A DNA stretch of 64,000 nt from Flavobacterium ranwuense (GTDB lineage: Bacteria; Bacteroidota; Bacteroidia; Flavobacteriales; Flavobacteriaceae), in contig NZ_SMLH01000001.1 in NCBI RefSeq assembly GCF_004349315.1, positions 310,001 through 374,000 of the forward strand, given 5' to 3'. This document shows, in pieces, positions 31,583 to 63,747 of the stretch (positions are counted from its first letter, which is position 1; each line of letters begins with the position of its first letter). Position numbers and translations under genes: made by a program. The notes beneath the pieces are model-generated. The model saw only the letters and a program-made list of their open reading frames with translations. It did no database searches and was not told the origin of the DNA.

Positions 31583-32731
31583 ATGAAACAACTACTATTA
31601 TTCTTATTCTTCACTATTACAGCATTTTCACAAAAAACCACAATACCATTCGATTCAAATGCACTGGGCGAAACCCGGGAAATTACAATTGGCTTACCTC
31701 CTTCTTTCGAAAAAAATCCAAATAAAAAGTATCCAATACTTATTTTACTCGATGGCGATTACTTATTTGACCCATTTTACGGCGCCTTGAACTACGGTGC
31801 CTACTGGGATGATTTGCCGGAAATGATTGTCGTTGGCATAAGCCAAAACAAAAATAACGAACGCATTGACGACAGTACTTATGACGAAGCAAACGGGGTT
31901 CCTTCCGGAAAAGGGGCGAAATTCTTTGAGTTTATTGGTGCCGAATTAATTCCATACATCGAAAAAAAATACCCGGTTGCACCATTCCGAATTATTGCAG
32001 GACACGATACTACAGCGGGATTTCTAAACTTTTTCCTGTATAAAGACAATCCTATATTCAATGGATATATTTCATTAAGTCCAGAACTGGCTCCTGAAAT
32101 GGAAAACCGCATTCCAGAAAAACTTTCAAATTTAAAACAACCTATTTTTTATTATCAATCCAATGGTGATGGAGATATAAAAAAAATTCAAGAGTCTATA
32201 AAAAAACTAGACGAAAATATAAAACTGGTTATTAATCCTGCATTAAATTACAAGTTCGATAATTTTAAGGGCGCATCACATTATTCGCTAGTGCTTTATT
32301 CAATTCCAAATGCCTTATACCAATTTTTTGATGCCTACAAACCTATTTCATCTACTGAATACAGTGAAAAAATTGCCGTGCTTCAATCCGGTTATGTAGA
32401 TTATTTGACCAATAAATATGCTGTTTTGTCTAAAAGTTTAGGTTTAAAAATACCTATTCGCGTAAATGATTTCAAAGCCATTGAAGCGGCAATTCTAAAA
32501 AATAAAGCCTATCCAGAATTGGATAAATTAGCAGAAATCGCTAATAAAAATTATCCAAAATCAATGTTGGCCGATTATGAATTGGGTCTAATGTATGAAA
32601 AAATGGGAGACCCGAAAAAAGCCGCAAAACGCTATCAAAGTGGGTCCCAATTAGAGGAAATTGGCGACCTTACAAAAAACATGATGATGGAAAAATACGA
32701 TGACATGATAAGCCAAACACCAAAAAAATAA
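31583..32731 (+). CDS. Secreted alpha/beta-hydrolase with Asp at the nucleophile elbow, plus C-terminal TPR
   Basis: A 382-aa protein with a signal peptide (about 1-16) and an esterase-D-like alpha/beta-hydrolase domain: PILILLDGDYLFDPF, then the elbow IAGHDTTAGFLNF, and a candidate catalytic His at H233 (GASHYS). The usual elbow is G-x-S-x-G; here it reads G140-H-D142-T-T, so Asp replaces Ser. It might use Asp as nucleophile, as in dehalogenases and epoxide hydrolases, or be a non-catalytic member. The last ~80 residues contain a TPR-like unit (MLADYELGLMYEKMGDPKKAAKRYQ). Its stop overlaps the radA ATG (TAATG), implying translational coupling. Confidence 0.75.
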   Translation: MKQLLLFLFFTITAFSQKTTIPFDSNALGETREITIGLPPSFEKNPNKKYPILILLDGDYLFDPFYGALNYGAYWDDLPEMIVVGISQNKNNERIDDSTYDEANGVPSGKGAKFFEFIGAELIPYIEKKYPVAPFRIIAGHDTTAGFLNFFLYKDNPIFNGYISLSPELAPEMENRIPEKLSNLKQPIFYYQSNGDGDIKKIQESIKKLDENIKLVINPALNYKFDNFKGASHYSLVLYSIPNALYQFFDAYKPISSTEYSEKIAVLQSGYVDYLTNKYAVLSKSLGLKIPIRVNDFKAIEAAILKNKAYPELDKLAEIANKNYPKSMLADYELGLMYEKMGDPKKAAKRYQSGSQLEEIGDLTKNMMMEKYDDMISQTPKK

Positions 32732-34092
32732 TGTCAAAAGTAAAAACAACTTTTTTTTGCCAGAACTGTGGCGCACAGTATGCAAAATGGCAAGGACAAT
32801 GCAATTCTTGTAAAGAATGGAATACCATTGCGGAGGAAATTATCCAAAAACAAGAAAAAACAGCTTGGAAAAGCGAAACTACTTCCAGCAGTAAAGCACC
32901 AAAACCGTTACGAATAAACGAAATTGATTCTGCTCAGGAAATCCGAATGGACACCACTGACGCCGAACTCAATCGCGTGTTGGGTGGTGGAATAGTTCCC
33001 GGTTCCCTGATTCTTTTAGGCGGTGAACCCGGCATCGGAAAAAGTACCCTTTTGCTTCAGATATCCTTAAAGTTACCTTATAAAACTTTATATGTTTCGG
33101 GCGAAGAAAGCCAGAAACAAATAAAAATGCGTGCGGAGAGAATCACGCCCAGTGGAGACAATTGTTATATTCTTACCGAAACCAAAACCCAAAATATCTT
33201 CAAGCAAATTGAAGCTATCGAACCGGAAATCGTGATTATCGATTCCATTCAAACGCTTCATACAGATTATATTGAATCCACTCCCGGCAGTATTTCTCAA
33301 ATACGGGAAACCACAGCCGAACTAATCAAGTTTGCCAAAGAAACCAATATTCCCGTGATCCTGATTGGTCACATCACCAAAGACGGAAACATTGCAGGTC
33401 CAAAAATCCTGGAACACATGGTCGATACCGTTTTACAGTTTGAAGGCGACCGGAATCACGTATACCGCATTTTGCGTTCGTTAAAAAACCGTTTCGGATC
33501 CACAGCTGAAATTGGTATTTATGAAATGCTTGGCAACGGTTTGCGCGAAGTTTCGAATCCGTCGGAGATATTGATTTCACACAAAGACGAGGAATTATCC
33601 GGAACCGCGATTGCCTCCACATTAGAAGGCATGCGACCGTTGATGATTGAAATCCAAGCCTTAGTGAGTACCGCCGTTTACGGAACACCGCAACGCAGCA
33701 CCACGGGTTATAATGCCAAAAGACTCAATATGATTCTGGCCGTTTTAGAGAAAAGAGCCGGTTTTAGGCTTGGCGCCAAAGACGTTTTCTTAAACATAAC
33801 CGGAGGAATTTCCGTAGATGATCCGGCGATAGATTTGGCTGTTGTTGCCGCCATTTTATCCTCGAATGAAGATATTGCGGTCAATAAAGATTTTTGCTTT
33901 GCTGGTGAAGTGGGACTTTCGGGCGAAATACGTCCGGTAAACCGCGTGGACCAACGCATTCAGGAAGCGGAAAAGTTAGGTTTTTCGACCATTTTTGTAT
34001 CCAAATACAATAAAATTGCGTTGAAAAACACAGGAATCAAAATTAGATTGGTGGCCAAAATTGAAGATGTAGCGAGTGAATTGTTTGGGTAG
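32731..34092 (+). CDS. radA: DNA repair protein RadA
   Basis: A 453-aa RadA/Sms protein. It has an N-terminal zinc finger (CQNCGAQYAKWQGQCNSC), a RecA-like ATPase with P-loop GGEPGIGKSTLL, the RadA-specific LKNRFG motif, and a C-terminal Lon-protease-like domain (ITGGISVDDPAIDLAVVAAILSS). It drives branch migration in recombination. The 3' end is remarkable: the last 36 bp are repeated 3.78 kb downstream with two substitutions, keeping the reading frame and a stop. This suggests that the end of the gene was replaced or duplicated when the following block arrived. Confidence 0.96.
   Translation: MSKVKTTFFCQNCGAQYAKWQGQCNSCKEWNTIAEEIIQKQEKTAWKSETTSSSKAPKPLRINEIDSAQEIRMDTTDAELNRVLGGGIVPGSLILLGGEPGIGKSTLLLQISLKLPYKTLYVSGEESQKQIKMRAERITPSGDNCYILTETKTQNIFKQIEAIEPEIVIIDSIQTLHTDYIESTPGSISQIRETTAELIKFAKETNIPVILIGHITKDGNIAGPKILEHMVDTVLQFEGDRNHVYRILRSLKNRFGSTAEIGIYEMLGNGLREVSNPSEILISHKDEELSGTAIASTLEGMRPLMIEIQALVSTAVYGTPQRSTTGYNAKRLNMILAVLEKRAGFRLGAKDVFLNITGGISVDDPAIDLAVVAAILSSNEDIAVNKDFCFAGEVGLSGEIRPVNRVDQRIQEAEKLGFSTIFVSKYNKIALKNTGIKIRLVAKIEDVASELFG
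34055..34090 (+). repeat. Direct repeat copy 1 (3' end of radA)
   Basis: This 36-bp copy runs through the codons of KIEDVASELFG to the first base of the radA stop. It matches 37834-37869 at 34 of 36 positions. The differences in the coding part are synonymous (GTA/GTG, GGG/GGA). It may be the left junction of an inserted block. Confidence 0.85.
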
Positions 34093-34129
34093 AAAATAAA
34101 TGCAAAAATATTAATTTAAAAATTTATCC

Positions 34130-34300
34130 ATGAGGTATGAGTTGCTTACAGATTTAGGAGGTCTACTTTGGTGTCTACTAGTTAAATTTTGCACAACAAA
34201 TTTAAAGGAAGAGCAATCAAAAGAAAAATGGAGTAGAAATATTTTTTTCTTAATTGTAATAGGAATTATCATAAGCTTTATAGCGGTTAAATTCTTTTAG
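34130..34300 (+). CDS. Small membrane protein ORF, 56 aa
   Basis: ATG 34130 to TAG 34300 gives 56 residues. An N-terminal amphipathic stretch (MRYELLTDLGGLLWCLLVKF) is followed by a charged middle (EEQSKEKWS), then one membrane helix (IFFLIVIGIIISFIAVKFF). It starts 37 bp after radA and lies between the two radA-end repeats. Similar short charged-then-hydrophobic proteins are common in flavobacteria and have no known function. Its codon use looks ordinary. It is moderately likely to be real. Confidence 0.55.
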   Translation: MRYELLTDLGGLLWCLLVKFCTTNLKEEQSKEKWSRNIFFLIVIGIIISFIAVKFF

Positions 34301-34591
34301 AGTTCTATTCATTATATCAGCATAGTTAAGTCTAAATACTAAACCGCACAAATAATCTATAAAACAAACAATACTTTTGATAAATATCATTTATATATTC
34401 GTTTAGTATGCGCTACTGAATAGCGGGAATCTAACCAATAAAGGGTTTCTAGTTACTACTTTGTAGCTATAATATGCAAGTTATAGGCTATGATAAAACG
34501 ACACTGCAAACCAACGGTCCGGCAATTTAAATTGAGCCTCACGGAAAGGTGAAATGAACCTTACAACAAAGTAATACTGGAATATAAATTT
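34301..34591. other. Upstream region of araC, with cassette-type left end
   Basis: No ORF. It holds a 9-bp inverted repeat (ATACTAAAC / GTTTAGTAT) and a small hairpin CGCTA/TAGCG (34411-34425). GTTATAGGCTATG (34480-34492) is the inverted partner of 37704-37716. TTGAGCCTCAC (34532-34542) and ACAACAAAGTAAT (34563-34575) both recur before the acetyltransferase gene. Confidence 0.55.
34480..34492 (+). repeat. Left copy of 13-bp inverted repeat of the cassette
   Basis: GTTATAGGCTATG here pairs with CACAGCCTATAAC at 37704-37716, with one mismatch in 13. Together they bracket the araC-acetyltransferase-hydrolase-cyclophilin block. Confidence 0.6.
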
Positions 34592-34599
34592 TACTTTTG
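34592..34599 (+). promoter_or_regulatory. Promoter -7 box of araC
   Basis: TACTTTTG matches TAnnTTTG. It overlaps an in-frame TTG at 34597, so translation cannot sensibly begin there; ATG 34627 is the start. The presumed operator motif TTGAGCCTCAC lies about 50 bp upstream. Confidence 0.6.
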
Positions 34600-34626
34600 T
34601 ACGTTACTAACGCAACAATAGAAATC

Positions 34627-35454
34627 ATGGACGTGCAACAAGAGGATAAATTAAAGACGATAAGCTATTCCGGAATCTTTCTTTCGTGCTTTGCTGATTA
34701 CAGCGAAAAGTGTATTCATGCAACGCCTGAACACGTTTTGGTGTACTTGTATTCGGGCGAACAAATTATTGAAGACCGAAATAAAAAGATAAAGTTGCAG
34801 GCTGGTGATTGTGCTTTTATCCGAAGAGACCACCGCTTGAAAATGTACAAAAACAGCAAAGGCGAAGATTTGTACAAAGGTATTTCATTGACATTCAATC
34901 GTAATGTGCTTCGGGATTTTTACAGCAAAATGAACAAATCTGAAATTCCGAAAGGTGTGAAAATTTCTGATAAAACTGTCTTCAAATTAGAGCCAAGTCC
35001 TGCGATAGAAAGCCTTTTTCAATCACTCACACCGTATTTTGACAGCAACATAAAACCAACGGAAGGCGTTACGCACTTGAAATTATTGGAAGGAATTTAC
35101 GCTTTACTGAACAGTAACGAACTATTCTACCCAATACTTTTTGACTTTGCCGAACCTTGGAAAATTGACCTTTTAGAATTCCTCAACAGTAACTATATGG
35201 AAGAATTGTCAATGGAGCAAATCGCTTCGTTTACAGGAAGAAGTTTGGCGACATTCAAAAGAGATTTTAAGAAAATAAGCAACCTCACACCGCAAAAATG
35301 GCTGATAAAAAAACGCCTGGAAATGGCTTACATCAAACTGAAAGAAGAAGGCAGAAAAGTACAAGGTGTATATATGGAAGTTGGATTTAAAAACCCTTCT
35401 CATTTCTCAACAGCATTTAAAAAGCAATACGGAATTTCACCAACTGAAATCTAA
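34627..35454 (+). CDS. AraC-family transcriptional regulator
   Basis: 275 aa from ATG 34627. The N-terminal ~170 residues form a cupin-like sensing domain (SYSGIFLSCFADYSEK, LVYLYSGEQIIEDRNKKIKLQAGDCAFIRRDHRLKMYKN). The C-terminal ~100 residues hold two helix-turn-helix units: SMEQIASFTGRSLATFKRDFKK, and VQGVYMEVGFKNPSHFSTAFKKQYGISPTEI. It is probably a ligand-responsive activator of the three genes that follow, because a shared motif lies upstream of its own promoter and of theirs. It is the first regulated gene of the block inserted after radA. Confidence 0.92.
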   Translation: MDVQQEDKLKTISYSGIFLSCFADYSEKCIHATPEHVLVYLYSGEQIIEDRNKKIKLQAGDCAFIRRDHRLKMYKNSKGEDLYKGISLTFNRNVLRDFYSKMNKSEIPKGVKISDKTVFKLEPSPAIESLFQSLTPYFDSNIKPTEGVTHLKLLEGIYALLNSNELFYPILFDFAEPWKIDLLEFLNSNYMEELSMEQIASFTGRSLATFKRDFKKISNLTPQKWLIKKRLEMAYIKLKEEGRKVQGVYMEVGFKNPSHFSTAFKKQYGISPTEI

Positions 35455-35481
35455 AATTGAGCTTTAGAGAAAAGTAATTTG

Positions 35482-35513
35482 AGCCTCACAACAAAATAAT
35501 TGCGAGGCTTTAT
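35482..35513 (+). terminator. Weak hairpin after araC overlapping the next promoter
   Basis: AGCCTC (35482-35487) can pair with GAGGCT (35504-35509), followed by TTTATTTTT. The hairpin overlaps the motif TTGAGCCTCAC (35479-35489) and lies just before the -7 box at 35517, so it may end the araC message and also be part of the operator. Confidence 0.45.
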
Positions 35514-35516
35514 TTT

Positions 35517-35524
35517 TAACTTTG
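35517..35524 (+). promoter_or_regulatory. Promoter -7 box of the acetyltransferase operon
   Basis: TAACTTTG matches TAnnTTTG, 20 bp before the ATG at 35545. A TTG at 35500-35502 is near the -33 position. The motif TTGAGCCTCAC followed by ACAACAAAATAAT (35479-35500) is immediately upstream. Confidence 0.65.
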
Positions 35525-35544
35525 CATTGTAAATTAATAAGACT

Positions 35545-36105
35545 ATGCAAACAACAAATATATTCGAGCGACTAAAAAATGGAGAAACCATTTCTGCGAA
35601 CGACAAGGAAGCGCATAAAATGCGGGAGGCTTCGTTTGCAACTAAAAAATTATTGGTTCAGATGAATAATTCGTCAAACCCCGATGAAATTAGAAATTTT
35701 CTAAGCCAAATTACAAACAATGAAATTGACGAAAGCGTAACTGTATTTACACCGTTGCACATCAACTACGGAAAACATACCAAAATTGGTAAAAATGTAT
35801 TTATCAACTTCGATTGTGTTTTTCTAGATTTGGGAGGAATTACCATAGAAGATAACGTAATGATAGCACCGAAAGTAAGTCTGTTGTCGGAAGGACATCC
35901 AACTTCAATCGAAAACCGACATTCTTTAATTCCTAAACCCATTCACATCAAAAAAAATGCGTGGATTGGTGCAAATGCTACCATTTTGCAAGGTGTAACG
36001 ATTGGCGAAAATGCTGTCGTAGCTGCAGGTACTGTCGTTTCAAACGATGTTCCTGACAATACCATCGTAGGTGGAATTCCTGCAAAAATTTTAAAAACAA
36101 TTTAA
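35545..36105 (+). CDS. Hexapeptide-repeat acetyltransferase, maltose/galactoside O-acetyltransferase type
   Basis: A 186-aa protein with an N-terminal helical MAT-type region ([18 protein letters not shown]) and a left-handed beta-helix of hexapeptide repeats ([74 protein letters not shown]). The catalytic His candidate lies in [11 protein letters not shown]. It probably transfers an acetyl group from acetyl-CoA to a sugar or small alcohol. It is the first gene of a tight operon with the hydrolase (10 bp) and the cyclophilin-like lipoprotein (10 bp), downstream of araC. Confidence 0.9.
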
Positions 36106-36115
36106 TTTTATAAAG

Positions 36116-37204
36116 ATGAAAAAAGCCTTGGTATTAGCATTGTTGCTCGTCGTAATAGGACAAGCATTTGCACAAAACGGAAAATCAAAATCTAAAAAAA
36201 TGAATACAACAGAACAGTATACTTTTCAATTAAGCGAGAAAGTAACACGTCAAAAAGTAACCTTCAAAAATCGATACGGAATTACCGTAGCCGCGGATTT
36301 ATATACCCCAAAGAATATTGAAAATCAAAAACTTTCTGCGTTAGTAGTAAGTGGTCCGTTTGGTGCAGTCAAAGAGCAATCATCTGGGTTTTATGCAAAC
36401 GAGTTGGCTTCACGTGGTTTTGTTACATTAGCTTTTGACCCATCATTTACAGGAGAAAGTGGCGGGGAAGTCCGTAATGTAGCTTCCCCCGATATTTTTA
36501 CAGAAGACTTTAGTGCGGCGGTGGACTATATCGGTCTATTGCCGACAGTTGACCGTAATCGCATTGGCGTAGTGGGAGTTTGCGGTTTGGGTGGTATGGC
36601 ACTTACTGCCGCTTCCAACGACAGCAGGATTAAAGCAGTTGCCACGGCTTCAATGTACGATATGTCCCGCAGCATAAGCCGTAGCTACAAAGACAGCTAT
36701 ACGAGGGAGCAACGTCAAAAAGTTATTGATTACACAAGCCAGCAACGTTGGACAGATGCAAGAAATGGTAGTTATGCGATAGGTTATCACGAAGTACCGT
36801 TTGATGAAAATGGCAATCTCTTGAAAGGAGAGCGTATACTTCCTGAAACTTTGCCTGAAAATCCCGACCCTGTTTTAGCTGCATTCTTCGATTATTACAG
36901 AACACCTCGTGGCTTCCATCCGAGATCTATCAATTCTACAACAGCGTGGACTGCTACAACACCAATGTCGTTTTTCAGTTTTCCGATGATGACAAATGTT
37001 GATATGATTTCCCCTCGTCCGATTATGTTGATTGCGGGAGAAAATGCACATTCACGTTATTATTCCGAAGATGTTTACAAACTGGCTTCCCAGCCAAAAG
37101 AATTAGTAATTGTTCCCAATGCTGACCACGTGGATTTATACGATAAAAAAGATAAAATTCCTTTCGATAAACTGGAAACTTTTTTTAAAGAACATTTGAA
37201 ATAA
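36116..37204 (+). CDS. Exported alpha/beta hydrolase with Cys nucleophile
   Basis: A 362-aa protein with a signal peptide (about 1-20, GQAFAQ). The domain shows SGPFGAVKEQSSGFYANELASRG, LAFDPSFTGESGG and the elbow VVGVCGLGGMAL, where Cys156 takes the place of Ser, as in dienelactone hydrolases. The candidate catalytic His is H338 (NADHVDLYD). It resembles the YcjY/DLH-like group, but the substrate is unknown. It forms an operon with the acetyltransferase upstream and the lipoprotein downstream. Co-regulation with an acetyltransferase suggests acetyl or ester removal outside the cell, as an inference. Confidence 0.85.
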   Translation: MKKALVLALLLVVIGQAFAQNGKSKSKKMNTTEQYTFQLSEKVTRQKVTFKNRYGITVAADLYTPKNIENQKLSALVVSGPFGAVKEQSSGFYANELASRGFVTLAFDPSFTGESGGEVRNVASPDIFTEDFSAAVDYIGLLPTVDRNRIGVVGVCGLGGMALTAASNDSRIKAVATASMYDMSRSISRSYKDSYTREQRQKVIDYTSQQRWTDARNGSYAIGYHEVPFDENGNLLKGERILPETLPENPDPVLAAFFDYYRTPRGFHPRSINSTTAWTATTPMSFFSFPMMTNVDMISPRPIMLIAGENAHSRYYSEDVYKLASQPKELVIVPNADHVDLYDKKDKIPFDKLETFFKEHLK

Positions 37205-37214
37205 TAACAGGATT

Positions 37215-37679
37215 ATGAAACATTCTTTTTTAATTCTATTGACTTTTATGTCAGTTTTCATCAGCAGTGCATCGTCTTGTAATAAGGAAAACGACAACAT
37301 CAACACGGAAAACAACAACACTATGTCAAATGGAAAAATGAAAATAACGGTCAATTCACAAACCTTTACAGCTACCCTTTTGGATAATAATTCGGCAAAA
37401 GCATTCAAGGAAATGTTGCCTTTGACCATCAATATGACCGAGTTGAACGGAAACGAAAAATATTACGATTTACCAAATAATTTTCCCACAAACTTACCAA
37501 ATTCGGGAACAATAAAGAATGGAGACTTGATGTTGTTTGGCTCAAAAACCTTCGTGTTATTTTACAAAACTCATTCAACATCTTACAGCTACACAAAATT
37601 AGGAATGGTAGATGATGTAACAGGTTTGGCAACTGCATTAGGTTCAGGAAATGTAATCGTTAGTTTTGAATTGGAATAA
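37215..37679 (+). CDS. Cyclophilin-like-fold lipoprotein
   Basis: A 154-aa lipoprotein (lipobox-like SSASSC, then NKENDN). The remainder reads MKITVNSQTFTATLLDNNSAKAFKEMLPLTINMTELNGNEKYYDLP, then GDLMLFGSKTFVLFYKTHSTSYSYTKLGMVDD. This matches the small 'cyclophilin-like' beta-barrel domain often found beside AraC regulators and alpha/beta hydrolases. The prolyl-isomerase active site is not evident, so the function is unknown. It is the last gene of the cassette operon. Confidence 0.85.
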   Translation: MKHSFLILLTFMSVFISSASSCNKENDNINTENNNTMSNGKMKITVNSQTFTATLLDNNSAKAFKEMLPLTINMTELNGNEKYYDLPNNFPTNLPNSGTIKNGDLMLFGSKTFVLFYKTHSTSYSYTKLGMVDDVTGLATALGSGNVIVSFELE

Positions 37680-37703
37680 AAAAAAAACTAAATCCACAAG
37701 AAC

Positions 37704-37833
37704 CACAGCCTATAACAGCGGTTACACGCAATTGCTGGTTTACGGTAAGGTGAATGTTTTATTTTCATAACTTTGTTCACGGTTGCAGAAAATATAAATA
37801 GTTACAAAGTAAAGTTCAAAGTCCGACTTGCAA
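37704..37833 (+). repeat. Right end of the inserted cassette
   Basis: It begins with CACAGCCTATAAC (37704-37716), the inverted partner of 34480-34492. It then runs through AGCGGTTACACGCAATTGC, an imperfect GTGAA/TTCAC stem, a TAACTTTG promoter-like box (37768-37775) and GTCCGACTTGCAACC, joining directly to the second radA-end copy. The layout (inverted repeats, structured end, outward promoter) resembles recurrent intergenic ends around small gene cassettes in Bacteroidota. That comparison is from memory. Confidence 0.5.
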
Positions 37834-37869
37834 CCAAAATTGAAGATGTGGCGAGTGAATTGTTTGGAT
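37834..37869 (+). repeat. Direct repeat copy 2 (displaced radA 3' end)
   Basis: This 36-bp copy matches 34055-34090 at 34 of 36 positions. It is still readable as KIEDVASELFG followed by TGA, and it is not attached to any larger radA sequence. It is probably the original end of radA, displaced when the block inserted. Confidence 0.85.
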
Positions 37870-37891
37870 GATTTTAAAAACACAATAAAAA

Positions 37892-38416
37892 ATGAAATCG
37901 TTTCGAGAACACTTACAAATCGTCAACACTTTTCATGAACTTGGAGAAACTATCGAGGCAGCCCAATTTTTAATACAAGAATATGGTTTAGAAAACCCCA
38001 ATTTTAAAGGCTTTGAATTAAGGGAAAAAGCCAAACCAGAATTTATACTGATGACCACCGAAGGCGTTTTAGGCGAACCTCAAATCATCCGAATTCCTGA
38101 AAACACATTCGAATATCCGCTGGAATTAATGCTCAATCTTCTGGCGCATGAAATGATTCACGTAAGCCAAAAAACGAAAGAAAACTTAATTGAAGACAAA
38201 AACGAAAGGGAATGGCAAGCGTATTACGAAATGCTTTTTCATATAAAATTTCCTCAGATCCCTGAACTTTCTGATTTTCACAAACGCTTCTTTGCAAAGA
38301 AAGCGTTGGAATACTATAATCGGATGGGCGAAGGTTCTGAACTTCAATTAAAATATGCAAATCAAAAACAGGAAACAGACAATCTGTTGTCTTTTCTAGA
38401 TGCAAAAACGAAATAA
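37892..38416 (+). CDS. HExxH-motif putative zinc metallopeptidase
   Basis: A 174-aa cytosolic-type protein, with no signal peptide. LLAHEMIHVSQK (H86-E87-H90) is a canonical HExxH zinc site; GEPQIIRIPENTFEYPLELMLN precedes it, and an EWQAYYE helix that could supply the third ligand follows. I do not recognise a named family. It starts 22 bp after the second radA-end copy, so before the insertion it would have followed radA directly. That suggests an old radA-protease pair now split by the cassette. Confidence 0.7.
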   Translation: MKSFREHLQIVNTFHELGETIEAAQFLIQEYGLENPNFKGFELREKAKPEFILMTTEGVLGEPQIIRIPENTFEYPLELMLNLLAHEMIHVSQKTKENLIEDKNEREWQAYYEMLFHIKFPQIPELSDFHKRFFAKKALEYYNRMGEGSELQLKYANQKQETDNLLSFLDAKTK

Positions 38417-38442: not shown

Positions 38443-38665
38443 CAGGTCAAACGCATTAAAATAAGTTGAAGTTTAAACCACATAGAAACATAGTGTTTAT
38501 TCCTGCAAAAATAAATTTTGACGATGATAAGAGTTCACAATAGAAAAAAAGCATTGGATTTTTTTCTATGTCACCTAAATTTCGACTGTTCGGAACAGAT
38601 TTAAATCAAAAATTAAATTAATTTCTATGTTTCTATGTGGTTCATTTTTTAATGCGTTTGACCTG
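38443..38665. repeat. 220-bp fold-back element
   Basis: Two separate inverted pairs share one axis. CAGGTCAAACGCATT (38443-38457) pairs with AATGCGTTTGACCTG (38651-38665), and AACCACATAGAAACATAG (38476-38493) pairs with 38625-38642. The loop (38494-38624) also contains a CTATGT word. No ORF lies inside. It looks like a miniature inverted-repeat element; words such as ACCACATAGAAACATAG recur in intergenic regions of this genus, from memory. Confidence 0.75.
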
Positions 38666-38706: not shown

Positions 38707-38784
38707 ATTTTGTCATTTCGTCGAAGGAGAAATCTCATTAGTTGCTTTCGTTATGTGATTTCTCCTTCGACGAAATGACAAAAT
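38707..38784. repeat. Perfect 28-bp inverted repeat
   Basis: Arms 38707-38734 and 38757-38784 are perfectly complementary over 28 bp, with a 22-nt loop. The core word is TCATTTCGTCGAAGGAGAAAT. It lies in the 524-bp gene-free stretch between the HExxH gene and the TerB-like gene, beside the 220-bp fold-back. Neither arm is followed by a T-run, so it is more likely a REP/MITE-type element than a terminator. Confidence 0.9.
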
Positions 38785-44106: not shown

Positions 44107-44175
44107 TTTTGTTTGTATTTATGTTGTTTCTAATGTTGTTTTGAAAGCAAAAATTCAAATTGTATTCGAATGCCC

Positions 44176-44254
44176 TAGCCCCGATAAAAGCGAAAATCCT
44201 TGTTGTTTTTTCTTTAAAAACAACAAGATTGCAACGGATAGCGGGAAATAGCTC
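44176..44254 (+). repeat. Conserved-flank hairpin element, copy A
   Basis: The flanks TAGCCCCGATAAAAGCGAAA and ATAGCGGGAAATAGCTC enclose a perfect 12-bp stem (44199-44210 with 44216-44227). A second copy at 63666-63747 has nearly identical flanks but a different central stem. Here it lies just beyond the xth stop codon, where it may also end the xth transcript. Confidence 0.85.
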
Positions 44255-63442: not shown

Positions 63443-63665
63443 AATTTTTAATTACATTCATTATTGGATTTTCTAATTTTTTAACAATTTGCAGGTAACT
63501 AATTAATATGCAATTTAAAATCACACAAATCGACTTTATTTATCGACTTTATTTAAGGCAAAGAAGTATGACAAATATCAAATTTAATTATTCTCTAAAT
63601 ATATGAAAATATCTTACAAAAAGATTGTTTTCCAAATCTTTCAGAAAAAATTATGCGTGGCTCTT

Positions 63666-63747
63666 TAGCCCCGATAGCAGTGAAAATCCTTTTTGGCTCG
63701 TTTTTTAACGAGCCAAAAAGATTGTAACGAATAGCGGGATTAGCTCC
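63666..63747 (+). repeat. Conserved-flank hairpin element, copy B
   Basis: The flanks TAGCCCCGATAGCAGTGAAA and ATAGCGGGATTAGCTCC are almost identical to copy A (44176-44254). The central 14-bp stem (63689-63702 with 63707-63720) has a different sequence from that of copy A but is again perfectly paired. Confidence 0.85.

Follow-up and report, generated by a model that had tools for sequence, protein, structure and literature searches.

Genomic islands and phages integrate at the 3' ends of genes, and a direct repeat of the gene end then flanks the foreign DNA. In classical and sedentary chromosomal integrons, same-strand gene arrays are parted by hairpin sites of about 120 bp, every cassette begins with a box complementary to the left box of its own site, and a tyrosine recombinase is found at one end of the array. 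The first bases of such a cassette derive from its own attC site, the textbook box consensus is GTTRRRY, and a cassette usually, if not strictly, holds one promoterless gene. Homology-facilitated illegitimate recombination uses one homologous side and one side of short homology. Here we describe a locus of Flavobacterium ranwuense that bears comparison with each of these: a block of DNA with an araC operon, situated behind radA and flanked by two copies of the radA end. It lies in a stretch of 64,000 nucleotides (the window; contig C1 310001–374000), distant from the contig ends. We consider it reasonably probable that the block came to lie behind radA as an integron-type cassette and was later cut by microhomology joins and allele recombination, which left a radA-end scar.

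Counts of integrons have mostly relied on detecting IntI together with its additional domain. This domain, around patch III, is called defining for IntI in a paper that also names Bacteroidota among the phyla with integrons at varying prevalence (PMC9668308). The IntegronFinder 2.0 report gives a single complete Bacteroidetes integron, in Salinibacter ruber, and only In0 earlier (PMC9024848), and another paper reports intI in the Bacteroidetes/Chlorobi group (PMC2426708). Titles and abstract openings on Bacteroidetes and Flavobacterium integrons or cassettes, a coverage that is incomplete and leaves an earlier description possible, yielded no account of large Flavobacterium integrons.

The insertion behind radA

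The repeated gene end and its native neighbour are as follows.

32731–34092, + strand: radA, 453 amino acids (aa), intact; its final 36 coding bases are the upstream repeat copy
34055–34090, + strand: upstream copy of the radA end, encoding KIEDVASELFG, stop TAG
37834–37869, + strand: downstream copy, by comparison the native radA end; TGA at 37869–37871, then the native 20-nt spacer 37872–37891
37892–38416, + strand: HExxH-motif gene, native right neighbour, 174 aa

As stated in the initial annotation, the two copies are identical at 34 of 36 bases and each encodes KIEDVASELFG and a stop (TAG upstream, TGA downstream). When the insert was shuffled 300 times (first order), no 36-base stretch matched the radA end at more than 25/36 (mean 19.9). 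A repeat search lengthens the pair to 52 nt (83%), but the bases added on the upstream side of 37834 have no significant likeness to radA, being equalled in 279/2000 and 1623/2000 shuffles for two native radA ends. Positions 37816–37833 were considered as radA-like (FKVRLAT against IKIRLVA) and dropped, as they are not above shuffles and a bamA-like or pre-HExxH source fits better. An assembly artefact, named in the initial annotation as an outcome that would overturn its reading, is unlikely: the copies differ, and the locus (C1:344055–347869) is internal to a 1.05-Mb contig. For the HExxH-motif protein, searches of Pfam, NCBIfam and PDB gave no match at their thresholds.

The radA loci of relatives were compared in 80 and a further 40 stretches (120, with some genomes present twice) in addition to the window. 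In five of these (L014, L095, L098, L102, L112) radA is followed by the HExxH gene after 14–20 nt. These empty alleles show that the DNA between the radA-end copies is an insertion; relatives of this kind, without araC and with radA directly before the HExxH gene, had been predicted. The downstream copy, the spacer and the start of the HExxH gene are 87–91% identical to L098, L014, L112 and L102, and 76% identical to L095, which has a shorter spacer. By this comparison the downstream copy is the native radA end, apparently joined to the insert through an illegitimate junction. Capture of a donor radA end, one of the origins first proposed, is half right in this light.

Native neighbours of the downstream copy would also be seen after a local tandem duplication of the radA–HExxH junction followed by insertion between the copies. 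We regard this as highly improbable, as the copies disagree at two of their 36 bases and end in different stop codons, the duplication covers no more than about 36 bases, and the bases left of the downstream copy match DNA found before the HExxH gene in locus L111, or bamA, rather than radA; none of the 120 loci has a doubled radA end without an insert. The case for radA being a mosaic with a foreign 3' end was judged too weak for use; it would draw on the divergence of the last 62 bases, which are 86.9% identical to eight relatives as compared to 91.6% among those relatives (comparison set, 112 same-length radA genes from the fetched loci).

Other genes lie between radA and HExxH in L111 (F. 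rhamnosiphilum, which in L011 and L111 has the radA nearest to the window's among the named records), L105 and L096, and open reading frames (ORFs) of 547 aa, carboxylesterase-like by eye, are found behind radA in other loci. By this variety the intergenic stretch behind radA is a site of frequent gene turnover in Flavobacterium. In some relatives a carboxylesterase-like ORF replaces the HExxH gene. REP-like palindromes (GGATTTGCAATCC) occur beside the inserts behind radA in L111, L105 and L100; we rejected them as the mover, since the window has none and the whole genome only three copies.

Cassette boxes and a half attC-like site

The block contains the following features.

34130–34300, + strand: small membrane ORF, 56 aa, by eye
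34361–34479, no strand: intergenic DNA, also behind radA in L105 (76%) and partly in L096 (90% over 52 nt)
34480–34489, no strand: R'-like left box of the cassette, GTTATAGGCT, identical at 10/10 bases to the reverse complement of 37707–37716
34481–37794, + strand: proposed cassette with its right end cut off, placed from the boxes and the half site
34627–35454, + strand: AraC-family regulator, 275 aa, ExsA_N and HTH_18 (Pfam)
35545–36105, + strand: hexapeptide acetyltransferase (maltose/galactoside O-acetyltransferase-like), 186 aa, NCBIfam matches under cut-offs
36116–37204, + strand: alpha/beta hydrolase (PETase/DLH-like), 362 aa, signal-like N-terminus by eye
37215–37679, + strand: Cyclophil_like2 lipoprotein-like protein, 154 aa (Pfam)
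37707–37716, no strand: right cassette box AGCCTATAAC (R''-like), complementing GTTATAGGCT; the left half of the attC-like hairpin begins here
37709–37794, + strand: left half of the attC-like hairpin, profile positions 1–87, right half absent

The gene list of the initial annotation agrees with Pfam (AraC/ExsA_N, hexapeptide acetyltransferase, alpha/beta hydrolase, Cyclophil_like2 lipoprotein), the small membrane ORF being read by eye. Judged by its matches elsewhere, the insert is a mosaic. Positions 34000–34299 are 73% identical to DNA at or just after radA in L019/L129 (one genome), and similarity to L105 stops at 34483, where the cassette starts. From 34483 to 37723 extends the araC-acetyltransferase-hydrolase-lipoprotein operon, which other genomes carry at different positions. 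Homology to those copies has its left limit at 34483 (L168) and its right limit at 37718–37723 (L168, L169). The hydrolase has matches at E ≤ 1e-60 in 49 of 398 genus genomes, the own genome included; in the closest operon copies AraC and the acetyltransferase are 79–94% identical and the hydrolase about 60%.

The start box of the block complements the R''-like box of its own attC-like site, as in an integron cassette. The left-box 10-mer was met in 6 of 5000 shuffles of 34093–34627, and the half site scores 61.1 bits (nhmmer, E 1.9e-16). In a second scoring, R1 gives 50.7 bits, and the part that runs on into the radA end is poorly paired. We regard the araC block as likely to be an integron-type cassette. 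The motif GCCTATAACAGCGGTT alone, with one exact copy in the window and others in 21 viral contigs, was uninformative until whole sites were aligned, and DNA folds of the two flanks of the operon are no better than shuffles. The left-half motif is exact in 21 viral contig stretches, and the IMG/VR viral contig L193 has a weak attC-like site at 1834–1977 (E 2e-4).

The attC-like site family of Flavobacterium

A search with the junction led to repeats in genomes G112, G060 and G064 and to an array in G073. The sites lie on one strand, 98 in 85 kb of G073 and 39 in 38 kb of G213, with boxes readable in 96 and 37 of them, respectively. Taking 5 or 6 of 6 bases as complementary, the box in front of a site pairs with the one behind its predecessor in 84 of 95 neighbours in G073 and 35 of 36 in G213, compared with 14.6% and 12.5% among all pairs; the two own boxes of one site agree in 17.7% and 16.2%, near chance. 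In further stretches, counted for neighbours up to 2.5 kb apart and after dropping sites with unreadable boxes (two in G221, one in G213, four in G073), the rule holds for 31/43 neighbours in G210, 31/40 in G221, 23/23 in G133, 11/11 in G213, and 29/31 and 28/34 in G073. On these counts the arrays in relatives follow the box rule of integron cassettes.

Of the 14 pairs in the hairpin of the sites, 10 have changed on both sides, and 93.7% of cells are paired, a value reached in 0 of 500 shuffles; slid versions of the hairpin are 24.5–45% paired. By these counts compensatory change keeps the hairpin; the structure was derived from the same 18-sequence alignment on which pairing was scored. Five sites folded as DNA have z-scores between −1.5 and −4.4. 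At E ≤ 1e-5, a profile of the 18 sites gives 371 matches in the fetched DNA, as against 0 when that DNA is reversed; the set (3.59 Mb, partly overlapping) was chosen around sites and includes the 18. A covariance model that scores up to 11 candidates in each genome finds one or more sites at E ≤ 1e-5 in 228 of 299 genus genomes, among them the own genome, where attC-like sites are found on contigs C4 and C18. In G073 the sites span about 177 kb from first to last (C1, approximately 3,075,980 to 3,253,190); within this span, 3,165,000–3,224,999 is outside the fetched DNA, and the genome-wide search lists sites there. The ORFs in a 5.5-kb piece of this array (L249) are small and of no recognised kind.

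The Flavobacterium arrays share with classical and sedentary integrons the same-strand order of genes and hairpin sites of about 120 bp, the complementary boxes, and the tyrosine recombinase at one array end. They differ in their boxes (GTTATAGGC, GTTATGCGA, GTTAGC), not all of which fit the consensus, and in the recombinase, which reads in the same direction as the array.

A Xer-like recombinase beside the arrays

A tyrosine recombinase of 349 aa is encoded about 0.6 kb before the first site of the G073 array, on the same strand. It matches Phage_integrase (Pfam) and stays under all NCBIfam cut-offs (XerA 194 bits against 220, XerC 185 against 335, integron integrase 182 against 265). Its nearest PDB chains are the XerC-like 4a8e and XerA 5hxy, and these, together with the NCBIfam scores, ally it with XerA/XerC-type recombinases, from which it differs by an extra N-terminus of about 75 residues and its place beside cassette arrays. 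Its alignment with IntI4 (2a3v) breaks into two pieces, between which the array recombinase has 22 residues and IntI 65; the IntI additional domain presumably falls in this gap. The score far below the integron integrase cut-off and the missing middle segment both separate the array recombinase from IntI, whose specific domain was not found in it. TIGR02249 (integron integrase) was discarded as evidence by itself: it matches 12/12 genomes and 14/14 controls, never over its cut-off, and therefore also catches ordinary Xer proteins.

The distribution of the recombinase was surveyed in 76 genomes picked by site count, with a relative defined by E ≤ 1e-40 and many sites as 8–11 scored. A relative is present in 46: 36 of the 38 many-site genomes, 6 of the 17 single-site genomes and 4 of the 18 site-free ones (Fisher p 5e-8 for many-site against no-site genomes). 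It is absent in G241, with two sites, and in G299 and G331, which are outside the site survey. Among the matches listed, and by eye, 18 genomes have a site within about 25 kb 3' of the recombinase and on its strand; G164 has sites on both sides, G098 has only one, 252 kb away, and the remaining genomes have none listed on the recombinase's contig. The own genome encodes a relative with 41% identity (C18:244969–246009), and a weak site (E 2.4e-5; C18:246949–247080) follows 0.94 kb downstream, by the contig end. The earlier suggestion that an enzyme from outside the insert had moved it may be right in another form: the main block looks like an integron-type cassette, and the genome encodes a matching type of recombinase at a different locus.

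The right junction

The DNA just before the downstream copy resembles more than one source.

37786–37813, no strand: pre-HExxH-like sequence, found in L111 directly before the HExxH start codon

This segment agrees with the L111 DNA at 26 of 29 aligned columns, one a gap (0/2000 shuffles). Positions 37797–37828 resemble the inside of the own bamA (BLAST E 0.0026; 0/2000 shuffles), with like matches in bamA of five other genomes (E 7e-5 to 3e-3). The word CAGAAAATA occurs both in L243, within its hairpin site, and in the L111 DNA; CCAAAATT is common to the bamA of G017 and some native radA ends (L098, L014), the own bamA being one base off. Because these words are shared between the joined sources, the joint at the downstream copy looks illegitimate under either reading.

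We infer the order of events, the direction of transfer, the activity of the recombinase and the microhomology joins as follows. The araC-acetyltransferase-hydrolase-lipoprotein cassette would have come from an integron-like system and inserted behind radA after the G of G|TT, into L105-like DNA. Its attC-like hairpin would then have been halved by a join at CAGAAAATA to the pre-HExxH DNA of an L111-type, insert-bearing allele. The second radA end would have come in with another illegitimate join, this time to an empty allele in which radA end, 20-nt spacer and HExxH follow one another, perhaps via a bamA-like stretch that shares CCAAAATT with some radA ends. Homology-facilitated illegitimate recombination would yield such a lone partial gene end of variable length and is a candidate process here; the sources of the window joint are ambiguous.

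Second radA ends in other genomes

The initial annotation had offered site-specific integration into the 3' end of radA as one origin of the repeat, which would place the integrase in trans and make the two radA ends attL and attR. The direct repeat at a gene 3' end with restored coding sequence, the empty sites in five relatives, and the two other genomes with a second radA end are as such integration would leave them. Only one of the 80 loci (L025) and one of the 40 further stretches (L091) have a second end (at least 25/36 in the following DNA, up to 10–12 kb where sequence was present), although many loci have other DNA behind radA. When the last 22 RadA residues were searched against 398 genus genomes, a query that diverged copies would escape, 380 matched and 18 did not. 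Six have two matches, and in three of the 398 the second copy adjoins radA: the own genome, G165 (L025) and G366 (L091); the other three have 45–55% matches on other contigs. In the family, 160 of 299 genomes matched and, besides the own, only G412 and G430 have two, on different contigs.

The repeats measure 36 bp in the window, 68 bp in L025 and 200 bp (188 identities) in L091, so there is no constant core among the three, and their contents are unrelated. The L025 insert has an ATP-binding protein and pieces of a broken methylase, and the L091 insert a Y1-type transposase-like ORF and a toxin-antitoxin-like pair, all named from sequence rather than by profile search. No integrase was seen among the ORFs of the window, L025 and L091 inserts, which were read by eye with no profile search. 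Phages, plasmids and viral contigs gave no radA end, at the limited sensitivity of short queries. In its lack of a constant core or visible integrase, its rarity and its unequal repeats, the radA case departs from the gene-end sites of islands and phages, and we hold site-specific integration to be very unlikely. The second radA end looks like a rearrangement scar and not a landing site. The L025 contig is filed under a Lentimicrobium metagenome-assembled genome, and with its Flavobacterium-like radA (94% to the window) and neighbours it is probably misbinned or mislabelled.

Assessment of the cassette reading

Several observations weigh against an integron-type cassette later cut at its right end. 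The block has no complete foldable attC at its 3' side; the right half is missing, hence the cassette would be a truncated one, and the identity of the window site depends on 86 bases and one box pair. The evidence for the site family as such is much broader. Its four genes begin with the regulator, which does not fit a single promoterless gene, and with their own upstream region they are much for one cassette. Of 15 other operon loci, 13 lack an R''-like box immediately after the final gene (by eye) and look like ordinary operons, and L168 and L169 have an R''-like box but no matching left box. Near these operon copies the model at E ≤ 0.01 finds only one site each in three loci, all upstream (L169, about 1 kb; L174, about 2 kb, weak; L161, about 5 kb); L169 also has a trace of a site directly behind the operon (E 2.4). 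The stretch 37797–37841 has two competing, overlapping sources, the L111 pre-HExxH DNA and bamA. On the own contig C4 the box rule holds for 2 of 4 neighbour pairs, and C18 has too few sites for such a count. Two of the 38 many-site genomes are without the recombinase at E ≤ 1e-40, and 4 of the 18 site-free genomes have one.

The operon loci without an R''-like box would suit a recombination hotspot, in which exchange proceeds via homology in radA and the downstream core genes, the operon is ordinary DNA, the boxes are chance or later decoration, and homology-facilitated illegitimate recombination leaves the scar as a side effect. The content behind radA varies widely (547-aa carboxylesterase-like ORFs, a leucine-rich repeat gene, another AraC gene, a toxin-antitoxin-like pair, methylase remnants), and no recombinase was seen in the ORFs read. 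Boxes complementary at 10/10 positions and placed at the very ends of the operon homology would, however, be unexpected from a hotspot, as would the half site with its E-value. We consider a hotspot of this kind unlikely, if less so than integration or duplication at radA, and prefer the truncated cassette.

Other elements in the window

Two Flavo-1 RNAs (44173–44252 and 63663–63745, + strand) are above the Rfam gathering score. Behind the HExxH gene, at 38443–38665, two inverted pairs of 19 and 18 nt, both perfect, resemble a small element of a mobile or repeated kind. A hairpin at 38707–38784 has 32-nt arms, 97% complementary, and a 14-nt loop; a near copy (GTCATTTCG.CGAAGGAGAAATC) lies behind radA in L129.

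Implications

Flavobacterium probably holds a genus-wide integron family served by a Xer-like recombinase without the IntI domain, which surveys that require the domain would have missed. Its arrays would reach about 177 kb, as in G073, and it would seed single cassettes, such as the araC operon, elsewhere in the chromosome, where they become truncated relics. At the radA locus, a stray cassette and a recombination scar would replace the story of an integration site. If the arrays work, a very common environmental genus holds large integrons with a different recombinase. The need for the IntI domain in recombination of folded single-strand attC sites would then become testable, and a large pool of unread cassettes would be at hand.

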